42,002 bases of DNA from Verrucomicrobiota bacterium. Its GTDB lineage: Bacteria > Auribacterota > JABMQX01 > JAFGEW01. The notes under the pieces were generated by a model. The model was given only the letters and a program-made list of their open reading frames with translations, made no database searches and had not been told where the DNA came from. The translations under genes and the position numbers were made by a program. The stretch spans positions 1 through 42,002 of the forward strand of contig JAFGEW010000023.1 of the NCBI GenBank assembly GCA_016931415.1, given 5' to 3'. Positions 37,708 through 42,002 of the stretch are shown one piece after another; the first letter of the stretch is position 1; every line of letters starts with the position of its first letter.

Positions 37708-37728
37708 ACCATCTTGGGGCCTGATCTG

Positions 37729-38907
37729 ATGGAAGAAGCGGCGCGAGGCAAAGGGCTCAGCGTTTTCGAACGGTATCTGACCGTGTGGATCATCGTGTGC
37801 ATCGGTGCGGGCATCATGCTGGGCAAGCTCGCGCCGGGCGTGGCGCGCACGCTCGATGCGATGGCGATCTCCGTCAACGGTGCGCCCGTCGTGTCGATCC
37901 CCATCGCCGTCTGCCTCTTCTTCATGATGTACCCGATCATGGTGAAGATTGACTTCGCCGAGGTGGTCAAAGCGGGCAAGAGCGGCAAGCCCGTCGGGCT
38001 GACGCTCTTTGTGAACTGGGCGATCAAGCCGTTCACGATGTACGCGATCGCCGTGTTCTTCCTCGGCACGCTGTTCTACACACTTATCGGCCCGGACGCC
38101 GTGGACTACGTCAAGGCGCCCTTTGGGCTCGACTTGCCTGTCGGAGCGCAGCACGGCGCGGGCACGGTCGTGATGCACGAGGGCGCTCGGATGCTCGAGG
38201 TGCCGCTGTGGCGCAGCTACCTGGCGGGCTGCATCCTGCTCGGCATTGCGCCCTGCACGGCCATGGTGCTCGTGTGGGGCTATCTCGCGCGAGGCAACGA
38301 CGGGCTGACGCTCGTGATGGTGGCCATCAACTCGCTGACCATGCTGGTGCTATACGGCGTGCTGGGCGGATTCCTGCTCGGTGTGGGGCGGCTGCCGGTG
38401 CCGTGGCAGGCGCTGCTGTTGTCCATATCAGTCTACGTGGCGCTACCGCTCGTGGCGGGCTACGTCTCGCGCAAATGGATTATCTCGGCCAAGGGCGCGG
38501 CGTGGTTCGAGGAGAAGTTCCTGCACGTGCTGACGCCGGTGACCATCATCGCGCTGCTCGTCACGCTCGTGCTGCTGTTCTCGTTCAAGGGCGACGTTAT
38601 CCTCTCCAACCCGCTGACGATTCTCTGGATCGCCATCCCGTTGTTCATCCAGACCAACCTCATCTTCTGGATCGGCTACGGCCTGGCGAAAGTGCTCAAG
38701 CTCAGCTACCGGGACGCCGCCCCCGCGGCCATGATCGGGGCGTCGAACCACTTCGAGGTCGCCATCGCCACGGCGACGATGCTCTTCGGGCTCTCGTCGG
38801 GCGCGGCGCTCGCCACCGTCGTCGGCGTGCTCATCGAGGTGCCCGTCATGCTCATGCTCGTGCGCATCTGCCTGCGGACGCGCGGCTGGTTCGGCAGCCC
38901 GGCGTGA
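37729..38907 (+). CDS. acr3: Arsenite efflux pump, Acr3 family
   Basis: 392 residues from ATG 37729; a TTG at 37714 would add five. Acr3 is a secondary transporter that extrudes As(III) from the cytosol. About ten helices are seen. The hallmark block with the essential cysteine is [21 protein letters not shown] (Cys176), and the C-terminal [22 protein letters not shown] with [13 protein letters not shown] is typical. An extracellular-type loop of about 40 residues (about 120-160, [28 protein letters not shown]) precedes the cysteine helix and looks longer than in short Acr3s. It closes the operon, 21 bases after the ArsG/CcdA gene. No arsC, arsA or arsM is present. Confidence 0.94.
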
Positions 38908-39172
38908 GTTGCCGACGGCCCGTCTCGCCTGCCTGTCTCTGTCTGATACCGGTGTGATGGTCATCCGTAGAGGTGATCGCATCGGATTGCGGCCTGTTGA
39001 AGACCCGATCGCAAGAGGAATGCAGGGAGCCCTGCGGACCTGTCTTGACGCATCCAGGGCAGGGGTTGTTGCGGGACGCTGACAGCGGTCAGGAGATCCG
39101 GAGCCCATTCCTGTTCGGGCCCGGTGACTATCATCTCCAGGCCGTGCCACGCTAAGGCAATCGACGCAGGTC
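38908..39172. other. Gap between acr3 and the truncated rhs gene
   Basis: 265 bases with no credible gene. It contains a small hairpin GCAGGG-AG-CCCTGC (39022-39035) that may end the ars operon. I found no promoter, no YD-repeat remnant in any frame and no clear ribosome binding site for the rhs frame; an in-frame stop lies at 39125-39127. Confidence 0.5.
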
Positions 39173-41080
39173 ATGACGGGTACGGACCTGGTGACGCGGT
39201 ACGCCTACGACGTGCGCGGCAACCTCAAGACGCTTACCGACCCGGCGAGCCAGGCGACGGCGTTCGCCTACGACCACCGCGACCGGCTTGTGACGACGAC
39301 CTACGAGGACGACTCGGTCCTGACCTACGAATACGACGCGAACGGGAACTTGATAACAAGAACGGGCCGCGACGACCAAGTGACCGAGTACGTCTACGAC
39401 GACCTCGACCGGCTGCTGCACGTCAAGTACATGAACGAATCGACGTCGGCCGTCGAGCGCTGCATCGTGCTCGGCTACGACGACGTCGGGCGCATGACGT
39501 CGGCCATCGTCAAGACGGGCGACCCGGACACGGGCACCGAGGTGAGCCGCATCGAGCGCGACTACAACGCGGTGGGCTGGCTGACGGCCGAGCGCCAGAC
39601 GCTGGGCGCCGACGAGAAAGAGGTTCTCTACTCAGCGTTCGACGATAACGGTGCGGTGACCGAGCTGAGCGACTCGACCGGCGCTCTTTCTCAGGCCTAC
39701 GAATACGACGCCTGGGGCATCGCCACCGTCTACGACCCCGACCACGCCTCGCGGAACCCGTACATGTACACCGGGCAGCGCTGGGACGCGGCCCTCGGCC
39801 TCTACTACTATCGCGCCCGCCACTACGCGCCACAACTGGGCCGCTTCATGCAGACCGACCCCGCCGGCTACGGCGACGGAACGGACCTGTACGCCTACGT
39901 CAGCGGCACGCCGACGGTGTTTATCGATCCGACGGGGATGGAGAAGTGGGACACCGACTGGGAAGGTGACCACGAACGCGCCAAGTGGATCACGCAGGAC
40001 GGAGGTGCCTGGTTTGGAGGCAACGTCGAGAAGATCGACATCGGCGAGGTGAAGGGCGGCAAGCTGCATCTGAGGGATGAGTACGGTGGTGCTGTCATTC
40101 CGATCAAAGACGCGCGGCGAATCATCAACACGCACATGTACATGGGAGCGCTCGCGGGGACCAAGACGATAAACCATGCGATCAAGGAAGCCTTTGCTGG
40201 TCGAGGTGTTACGCGCGGCAACAGCATGCTTTCGGAGGGGATCAAGGGATTTGGAAAGGGCGCGGGCGACTACTTCAAGGTGTTGGGCGATCACGCGACA
40301 CTCGGGTTGACGGGGCTGCATGAGGAAGCCATCGAAATCCAGGCCTCCTACGACGATCCGTGGTGTCAGGCCTCATTCGGCGCGGGGAAAGTCGGCGTCG
40401 AGCTTCTGCAGACGGCGTTAACGATGGGCGCCGGCAAAGCGCTGATGGCGACAGGTCGTGGTGTTCTGGCCGTAGCGCGGAACTCGCGCCACGTGGCCAC
40501 GGCGGTCAATGCGTTGTCGAAGGTACCAGGGCTGGCCCGCGCGGGCCGTGCGGCGCTCACGGGTGCTCGGGCGCTTGGGGCCATGGCGCCGCTGGCCGGT
40601 AAGGCGGTTGCCGTCGGCTTTACCGGCTACAGCGGATTTGAAGCCGGACGCGCTTTTGCCGCTGGCGATCTCAATGCCGGTGTGCATAATCTGGGGCGCG
40701 TGGGTCTGACCATCGGCGTGACGCGGGCGCTGACGAGGTCAAGCACCTATAGAGGTGGCGAGTATCGGAGGCTTGGAGCAAATGAAGGGACAGTCGTACG
40801 TCATCACATGCCGACCGATTCTGCAAGTCCCCTCCCCACAGGCCGGGGTCCGGCGATTCAGATGGCTCCCTCGGATCACATGAGGACAGCGAGTTGGGGA
40901 TCGTCTAGAAATGCGGTTGCATTCAGGGCGAGACACGCAGAGCTGATTCGGCAAGGGAGGTTCACGGAAGCGCAAAGGCTGGATATCGACGATGTCCGGT
41001 CGAGCTTCGGAAGCAGGTATGACGGTGCAATCCAAGAGATGCTAGACTACACCAGCGGCATGTATGGTGGAGGAGACTAA
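39173..41080 (+). pseudogene. Rhs/YD-repeat protein, 5'-truncated, with C-terminal toxin
   Basis: A 635-codon frame that starts abruptly inside the YD-repeat region (LVTRYAYDVRGNLKTLTDP, YEYDANGNLITRTG, YVYDDLDRLLHVKY) and lacks the N-terminal secretion part of full Rhs proteins. The conserved core end is present (YYYRARHYAPQLGRFMQTDPAGYGDGTDLYAYVSGTPTVFIDPTG, about residues 206-256). After the core comes a variable region of about 265 residues with hydrophobic Ala/Gly-rich stretches (pretoxin). The last 110 residues form the toxin, with HHMP near 544-547, then GPAIQMAPSDHMRT and a helical LIRQGRFTEAQRLDIDDVRSSFGSRYDGAIQEML. The paired histidines suggest an HNH-type nuclease, which is inference. 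It may be expressed as an orphan cassette or be inactive. Confidence 0.8.
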
Positions 41081-41082
41081 GC

Positions 41083-41508
41083 GTGATAGTACACCCATTG
41101 CGGGGAGTAGGCGCTCTGCGGTTTGGGATGACTCCGACCCAGGTTCGCAAAGTGTTAGGGGTACCCTACACCTCGTTCAGGAAGGGACCTTACGCGCAGT
41201 ACCCGACCGATGCGTTCGATTCCCTCGGGATCCATGTTTACTACAAGCAGGTAGGGACTTGTGAGGCCGTCGAGTTTTCTCGAGCAGGAACCGTGATATG
41301 GCAGGCAGAGAGTCTACTTGAGAAAACTCCGGCGAATTTGTTCAGCCTGCTTGCACATGAGGATCCAGAGATTGACGAGAACCCAGACGGCTTCGCATCC
41401 CATAAGCTGGGAATAGCAGCGTACGTACCAGGTTACAAGAAGGATCCAAGAAAGGCCAGGGTGGAAGGAATTCTCGTATTTGAGGAAGGCTATTACGCCA
41501 ACCAGTAA
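41083..41508 (+). CDS. Candidate immunity protein for the Rhs toxin
   Basis: 141 residues from GTG 41083, two bases after the rhs stop, with GGTGGAGGAG upstream. It opens with VHPLRGVGALRFGMTPTQVRKVLGVPY, a 'G.G...fGMt..eVr..LG.P' pattern common in small proteins encoded directly after polymorphic toxins. No signal peptide and no enzymatic motif are seen. Base composition is clearly less GC-rich than in the core genes, as is the toxin end upstream, which is usual for horizontally exchanged toxin-immunity cassettes. Position and size support an immunity role; direct proof is lacking. Confidence 0.65.
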   Translation: MIVHPLRGVGALRFGMTPTQVRKVLGVPYTSFRKGPYAQYPTDAFDSLGIHVYYKQVGTCEAVEFSRAGTVIWQAESLLEKTPANLFSLLAHEDPEIDENPDGFASHKLGIAAYVPGYKKDPRKARVEGILVFEEGYYANQ

Positions 41509-41597: not shown

Positions 41598-41661
41598 GTC
41601 GAATCGGGGGACACCATACCTATTGCACGGTCGAATCGGGGGACACCATACCTATTGCACG
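41598..41661. repeat. Two perfect tandem copies of a 32-bp unit
   Basis: Copy one 41598-41629, copy two 41630-41661, identical. The unit begins GTCGAATCGGGGGACACCAT. GGGGACACCATAC motifs are often found beside RAYT/IS200-like genes, and this pair lies 85 bases upstream of one. The rest of 41509-41746 holds the transposase promoter and no gene. Confidence 0.85.
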
Positions 41662-41746: not shown

Positions 41747-42002
41747 CATGCCGAGGTTGGCGCGCATAGTGGCTCCGGGGTTTCCGCATCACGTCACGCA
41801 GCGTGGCAACCGCCGCTTGCGCACGTTCTTCTCCGACGAGGATCACGAGGCCTACCTGAGCCTGATTCGCGAGTGGTGCGACCGTTGCGGCGTCGAGGTG
41901 TGGGCCTACTGCCTGATGCCCAACCACGTCCACCTGATCGCGGTGCCGGAGTCCGATGACGGCCTGCGCCGCGCGATCGGCGAGGCGCATCGGCGCTACA
42001 CG
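41747..42002 (+). mobile_element. REP-associated tyrosine transposase (RAYT, Y1 family), N-terminal part, cut by the window end
   Basis: 85 codons are visible, starting MPRLARIVAPGFPHHVTQRGN, the usual RAYT opening. The HUH motif that binds the metal is PNHVHLI (about residues 60-66) in the block VWAYCLMPNHVHLIAVPES. The catalytic tyrosine should lie just past the end, after EAHRRYT. Y1 enzymes cut and rejoin single-stranded DNA at hairpins. RAYTs are single-copy domesticated relatives of IS200/IS605 transposases associated with REP palindromes, which fits the palindromic elements at 4631 and 30277. The 32-bp direct repeats lie just upstream. Confidence 0.92.

Follow-up and report, generated by a model that had tools for sequence, protein, structure and literature searches.

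A stranded Rhs toxin tip and its candidate immunity gene with predicted folds resembling the TseN-TsiN pair

An rhs gene that starts inside its own YD repeats and ends in a toxin tip followed by a further gene raises three linked questions: what the tip does, whether the gene behind it encodes the antidote, and what use such a cassette could have. We addressed them for a locus in a Verrucomicrobiota draft genome, for which the window, i.e., the whole stretch of DNA analyzed, comprises the entire contig C23 of 42,002 bp; the cassette therefore lies near a contig end.

As summarized in Table 1, the anatomy of the locus was in accordance with the first-pass annotation, which had described a cassette beginning abruptly inside the YD repeats with homology starting within about 20 codons of the ATG: the first RHS repeat was matched from residue 12, and the nearest upstream stop lies approximately 15 codons before the ATG, the stop-free stretch of the frame amounting to 650 codons. 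The Rhs core end, the toxin and the immunity gene were said to be retained, and indeed TIGR03696 matched residues 178-256, both ORFs are present, and the immunity candidate follows the rhs orphan ORF at a spacing of two bases. Where the N-terminal parts had been called lost, their absence is real; loss is a guess on direction, since the cassette may have come without them. Upstream of the rhs ATG, merely a weak AGG was found. The Rhs core is closed by two DPxG elements, and in T6SS Rhs proteins the DPxG-x18-DPxG motif has an autocleavage role. The G+C content, approximately 0.66 in the core, was lower in the tip (approximately 0.57) and lower still in the immunity gene (0.52), as is expected of an exchanged tip. 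Orphan rhs cassettes are a known kind, and those of Salmonella resemble the present one in consisting of a core fragment, a tip and an immunity gene without a delivery part (PMC3967940, PMC7043789).

Table 1. Features of the orphan rhs cassette and its upstream flank (window positions)
Feature	Position	Strand	Remarks
SBF-type transporter gene	37714-38907		upstream neighbour
131-bp repeat	38899-39030	+	spans the last transporter codons onward; second copy on contig C8 391-522 (L031), 89% identity
rhs orphan ORF, N-terminally truncated	39173-41080	+	ATG start, 635 aa: YD repeats, core end, linker, toxin tip
YD/RHS repeats	39206-39427	+	PF05593; first matched repeat from residue 12, E 3.7e-16
Rhs-associated core end, residues 178-256	39704-39940	+	TIGR03696, E 2.3e-22
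DPAG-x19-DPTG, closing the Rhs core	39857-39937	+	motif spacing computed
Linker/pretoxin stretch, residues 257-522	39941-40738	+	without Pfam match
Toxin tip, residues 523-635 (113 residues)	40739-41077	+	TseN-CT-like fold in the model
Invariant tip residue H545	codon 40805	+	
Invariant tip residue H569	codon 40877	+	
Invariant tip residue Y616	codon 41018	+	
Shine-Dalgarno-like GGAGGAG, good	41069-41075	+	7 bases 5' of the immunity GTG; read from sequence
Immunity gene, 141 aa	41083-41508	+	GTG start; TsiN/YfeY/BamE-like fold in the model

Relatives of the tip were collected by tblastn, which gave five plasmid relatives, and by a genome scan with a four-row alignment, which gave 82, of which 80 were kept; the resulting 85 loci thus comprise 80 relatives in named genomes and the five plasmids. 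The tip alignment (A4) contains 71 tips, namely the window and 70 of the 80 relatives, and excludes the five plasmid relatives as well as ten partial, broken or out-of-frame rows (L042, L055, L062, L063, L067, L098, L103, L111, L114 and L117). Throughout this alignment H545, H569 and Y616 are invariant (71 of 71 tips), and D568 is found in 70 and P547, P560 and M564 in 69 each. The 70 relatives in the tree fall into seven phyla (Actinomycetota 35, Pseudomonadota 23, Bacillota 5, Planctomycetota 3, Verrucomicrobiota 2, Myxococcota 1 and Chloroflexota 1), and the window tip belongs to no starred clade below half the tree. Neither the single tip nor the four-row alignment detected a relative on viral contigs, and phages likewise gave none.

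The carriers of these tips were diverse. Regex sorting of all 80 (Rhs 7, Hint 12, VgrG 0) proved too narrow and was replaced by a Pfam scan of 20, in which RHS was recognized in five (one with WXG100), PT-HINT in two, PT-VENN in two (one with DUF637), Tox-PAAR-like in one and ALF in one, nine having no recognized domain. On the plasmids, the Agrobacterium tip lies behind VgrG and DUF2169 genes and the Rhizobium tip behind VgrG and PAAR genes, and the Streptomyces tips reside in Hint-bearing proteins. The occurrence of one tip on different carriers is characteristic of polymorphic toxins, and such use of unrelated N-terminal carriers was apparent among the 20 of 80 scanned.

The first-pass annotation had called the toxin end recognizable but unnamed, and this description held: the family is real, and the tip matched no toxin family of Pfam or NCBIfam. 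More broadly, searches of both collections with the tip, the linker and the immunity protein, singly and across aligned members, gave nothing above cut-off, scattered single-member matches among the 71 tips being taken as chance. No paper naming the tip family was found in the open-access literature, in which the motif is not searchable as text; a search under TseN and TsiN returned PMC12574953 alone as relevant; and in the accessible portion of the toxin table of PMC3482391, no motif line fits GG ... HHxP ... GPAIxM ... DH with such an immunity partner. Judged from sequence comparison and these sources, the tip and its putative antidote are a widespread pair without a name in Pfam, NCBIfam or the accessible PMC3482391 table, and are new here.

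The candidacy of the 141-aa protein as the antidote was assessed over the 570 downstream ORFs. By itself, the window protein retrieved 30 ORFs in 29 of the 85 loci (E < 0.005), and an iterated profile placed an immunity homologue starting at most 450 bp after the toxin stop in 68 of the 85, a count that leans on a profile grown on downstream ORFs only. Free of this bias are the single-sequence search and a control in which the final profile was run on 6930 ORFs from both strands of the loci; the latter gave eight hits elsewhere, all of them extra copies downstream of a toxin. An immunity gene directly downstream of the toxin, a hallmark of polymorphic toxins, was thus found at 68 of the 85 loci, and this conserved adjacency supports the immunity candidate. 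Furthermore, the toxin and immunity distances were correlated (r 0.85 over 44 loci present in both alignments, the window included; 0 of 2000 permutations were as high), with values of 0.78 for the non-actinobacterial and 0.95 for the actinobacterial subset. Because joint inheritance alone gives some correlation, this value supports binding of the two proteins and does not prove it. The immunity alignment used (A5) is made up of the window and 49 of the 68 loci, with double-domain, very long, partial and plasmid rows and the near-identical L109 excluded.

The immunity homologue was absent from 17 of the 85 loci (L034, L051, L053, L067, L068, L069, L071, L072, L073, L077, L080, L082, L084, L099, L104, L116 and L117). 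One actinobacterial tip clade (L034, L068, L069, L073, L077, L080, L082 and L072) is without the immunity family, and in L034 an unrelated 161-aa gene lies behind the tip; a second antidote type therefore seems likely in this clade. As to gene architecture, at least three to four tandem immunity homologues follow one Streptomyces tip as an immunity array (L083, 6387-8028), and unusually long immunity genes of 281-381 aa lie behind Streptomyces and Actinospica tips (L033, L049, L057 and L100), that of L033 containing two domain copies.

To what the tip might do, sequence searches of the PDB gave no answer, as the single tip and immunity sequences had no match and their profiles gave chance-level rows, 9j9w not being named at E up to 10. 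We therefore turned to predicted structures. The AlphaFold2 model of the tip built from the tip alignment had a mean pLDDT of 92.0 and a pTM of 0.84, and is composed of three strands followed by three long helices. The motifs and helical tail noted in the first-pass annotation were located in it: HH (residues 544-545) ends the strand at tip positions 24-28, DH (residues 568-569) lies in a short helix at 49-52 after the strand at 43-47, and three helices make up the C-terminus. Foldseek with this model gave nothing significant (best E 4.5). When the model was aligned by VIA-align with Foldseek's best 211 chains, 9j9w_B was the sole chain at Z >= 2, with a Z of 7.7 over 109 of 118 residues and an rmsd of 4.2, a Z of a size that, by the tool's own guidance, models lacking clear relatives often reach. 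The model of the immunity protein (pLDDT 96.1, pTM 0.90) aligned with 9j9w_A at Z 9.2 over 125 of 141 residues. Its fold is not specific, in that YfeY (Z 11.3), two CAP-type proteins (9.7 and 9.3) and YjgB (9.2), which are not immunity proteins, reached equal or better scores. RhsI1 of the Rhs1-CT complex (6xtd_B) shares the overall fold of the 41083-41505 product as well, with a Z of 5.6 over 116 aligned residues. A viral fold library gave no match.

The 9J9W structure is the complex of TseN-CT (H254A) with TsiN from Acidovorax citrulli, in which TseN, a T6SS DNase, has a three-stranded sheet with seven helices and loses its DNase activity upon the H254A substitution, and TsiN has a seven-stranded sheet with a loop covering the TseN active site (PMC12574953). 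From the fit and the description in that paper, we infer which chain is TseN and which is TsiN; judged by the distance to the C-terminus, H569 would be the better placed counterpart of H254. That two separately built models each appear to pick one chain of 9J9W is the strongest single clue, at the level of predicted folds, and the tip and antidote are likely to be either distant relatives of TseN and TsiN or proteins that resemble them in structure alone. The outcome that the first-pass annotation had named as refuting, a fold without nuclease-like residues, was not seen: the predicted fold is similar to that of the DNase TseN, and two of the histidines never vary. The likeness extends to gene order, the toxin gene being followed directly by the immunity gene, to the histidine dependence that is reported for the TseN DNase and predicted for the tip, and to the Agrobacterium relative L035, which, like tseN, is preceded by VgrG and DUF2169 genes (PMC12574953). 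In contrast, neither the window tip nor the immunity protein has detectable sequence similarity to its counterpart, and TseN is described as a fungus-killing T6SS effector that has a FIX motif at its N-terminus and a nuclear signal (PMC12574953), whereas the window toxin forms the end of an orphaned Rhs protein, and a search of its genome did not find the T6SS sheath gene VipB, the E. coli control having been matched. As for the immunity protein, weak matches below cut-off to DUF7738 and BamE, together with the YfeY-like fold, recall the BamE/DUF7738/YfeY type; it differs from that type in sitting behind toxin tips, and a lipoprotein or envelope role is not expected.

A different reading of the same model places the tip among the HNH/EndoVII (His-Me finger) nucleases as a divergent member, the match to TseN reflecting only a shared core. 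The predicted succession of the HH strand, the second strand and the short DH helix would fit a beta-beta-alpha core, and several HNH toxin clades (Tox-AHH, GHH2, SHH and EHHH) are described as small C-terminal domains, borne by Rhs and other carriers, in which HH is followed further on by another H (PMC3482391). However, no Pfam or NCBIfam HNH/EndoVII toxin model matched any of the 71 tips, and hhalign of the tip profile against one AHH tip gave a probability of 0.8%, a weak test as it used a single sequence; AHH had been sought in 44 genomes of the phylum, where none was found and the control was silent too, and in 30 carrier genomes, where it occurred at four places. In addition, the authors of the TseN paper report no known DNase resembling it (PMC12574953). 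We thus regard an HNH/EndoVII identity as doubtful but worth keeping in mind. Since no sequence kinship with TseN was found, the tip was not filed as TseN, and since no HNH profile matched, it was not filed as an HNH toxin either; it may work like one or the other.

The surroundings of the cassette were also inspected. Upstream of it lie, besides the SBF-type transporter gene, a DsbD-like gene and a thioredoxin-domain gene. The 131-bp repeat between the transporter gene and the orphan has its second copy directly behind a truncated rhs fragment on C8, and the stretch 39031-39172 has no significant second copy in the genome. The first-pass annotation had seen no Rhs remnant in the 265 bases before the ATG; this stood insofar as no YD motif was read by eye in any frame, and it needs qualifying in that half of these bases are the repeat that abuts a broken rhs on C8. 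A 39-bp part of the repeat (GGCCTGTTGAAGA...) has two further occurrences, one each on C76 and C6; there, the ends resemble the inverted repeats of a small mobile element. Downstream of the cassette, two direct 30-bp copies (TCGAATCGGGGGACACCATACCTATTGCAC) lie at 41599-41660, and a transposase-like ORF at 41748-42002, which resembles a REP-associated tyrosine transposase, is cut by the contig end, with copies on C87 (83%) and C105 (80%). One 30-bp repeat is also found inverted near the C87 copy.

The remaining rhs sequences of the genome were also surveyed. Including the window, rhs sequence was found on eleven contigs of this 134-contig draft assembly, and in nine of the ten others, among them C8, C36, C53, C89, C94 and C119, the rhs frame hits the contig end; the exception, C39 (L022, 23600-25400), bears an rhs gene that is cut short, is interrupted by an in-frame TAG and carries a different tip. 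On C50 (1-7753, L026), three consecutive rhs frames share one core type but each have a tip of their own, forming a displaced-tip array, the cores of which differ from the window core. The full-length rhs with a similar core that the first-pass annotation had proposed to look for did not turn up: none with a near-identical core was found adjoining or elsewhere, nine of the ten other rhs contigs breaking inside rhs, so that a partner may be hidden. The nearest cores showed 73-78% DNA identity over 112-296 bases (best, 78% over 241 bp), all near the core end and followed by unrelated tips, and such core similarity followed by tip divergence is, as far as the alignments indicate, the pattern of tip exchange. 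The Salmonella orphan, in contrast, adjoins its main rhs and shares 522 bp with it at 95% identity (PMC3967940), and the window orphan has its own ATG start, unlike the Salmonella orphans as described. The tip family was absent from the relatives searched and from elsewhere in the genome (1 of 145 genomes; 1 of 192 when the single sequence was searched together with the linker), and no second copy of the immunity gene was present in either; lacking such copies, the tip looks acquired.

These surroundings could also be those of a decaying, functionless fragment left by rearrangement at repeated sequence, a view in keeping with the missing N-terminus, the repeat that also abuts a broken rhs on C8, the interrupted rhs on C39 and the transposase just downstream. 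We nevertheless consider decay unlikely, because the frame is free of stops over its 650 codons, every invariant toxin residue is retained and the immunity frame is intact. Still less is to be said for an intracellular type II toxin-antitoxin module, in which expression from an internal start would supply the tip and the immunity protein would keep it in check. Orphan rhs tips of Salmonella are reported to act in this way via internal promoters and a CTG start (PMC7043789), and the ribosome site at the immunity gene of the window is strong; on the other hand, no sigma-70-like site precedes the immunity gene on the + strand, the one in the region (41713) being at chance level, the rhs ATG has nothing better than its AGG, and the relatives reside on export carriers, which argues against a family of mainly toxin-antitoxin character. 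This use of the cassette is quite improbable in our view. That the N-terminus is missing through misassembly, a full-length rhs having been mis-joined at 39031-39172, would suit a fragmented draft with so many contig breaks in rhs, but is very improbable, as the junction is unique in the genome, which does not favour a repeat-driven misjoin, and truncated rhs copies also lie inside C39 and C50.

Taken together, we consider it probable that the cassette is a stranded Rhs tip that arrived by horizontal transfer, its toxin being a DNase of the TseN kind and its immunity protein a plug of the active site in the manner of TsiN. The anatomy, the conserved pairing of toxin and immunity gene, the variety of carriers and the twin fold match are what the analysis shows; that the tip cleaves DNA, which residues catalyze this, how it is inhibited and that the cassette serves as a store are what we infer. 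The module would consist of the final YD repeats, the end of the Rhs core, the linker, the toxin domain and the immunity gene, without an N-terminal delivery part. The toxin domain is predicted to cut DNA at a site around H545 and D568-H569 on a TseN-type fold, and the 141-aa protein to bind it and plug the active site as TsiN does. The Rhs orphan protein as it stands would not be expected to be exported, and since it has no export part, the cassette would be silent until recombined behind a full-length rhs, the Salmonella orphan being reported to act after such joining (PMC3967940), or would be kept for its immunity gene. Storage or immunity-only use is more likely than intracellular toxin-antitoxin use, because the ATG is poorly equipped and promoter-like sites are no more frequent than by chance.

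With regard to the family as a whole, we lean slightly towards placing the tip and its antidote in a large, unnamed polymorphic toxin/immunity superfamily that would reach across no fewer than seven phyla and all major export routes, with TseN-TsiN as a far outlier. If this is true, the "new DNase class", described once, for a T6SS effector directed against fungi, would be in general use as a weapon against bacteria, and the active site (HHxP ... DH) and plug-type immunity would have stayed together across a long divergence. A residue signature characterizes the pair, both partners have a confident model, and both are tied by fold to one recently solved DNase-immunity complex; two very diverged pairs matching one complex would offer a test of toxin-plug matching despite lost sequence likeness. 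If the assignment is right, many unannotated Rhs, CDI, T6SS and T7SS tips would gain a testable activity and an antidote at once.
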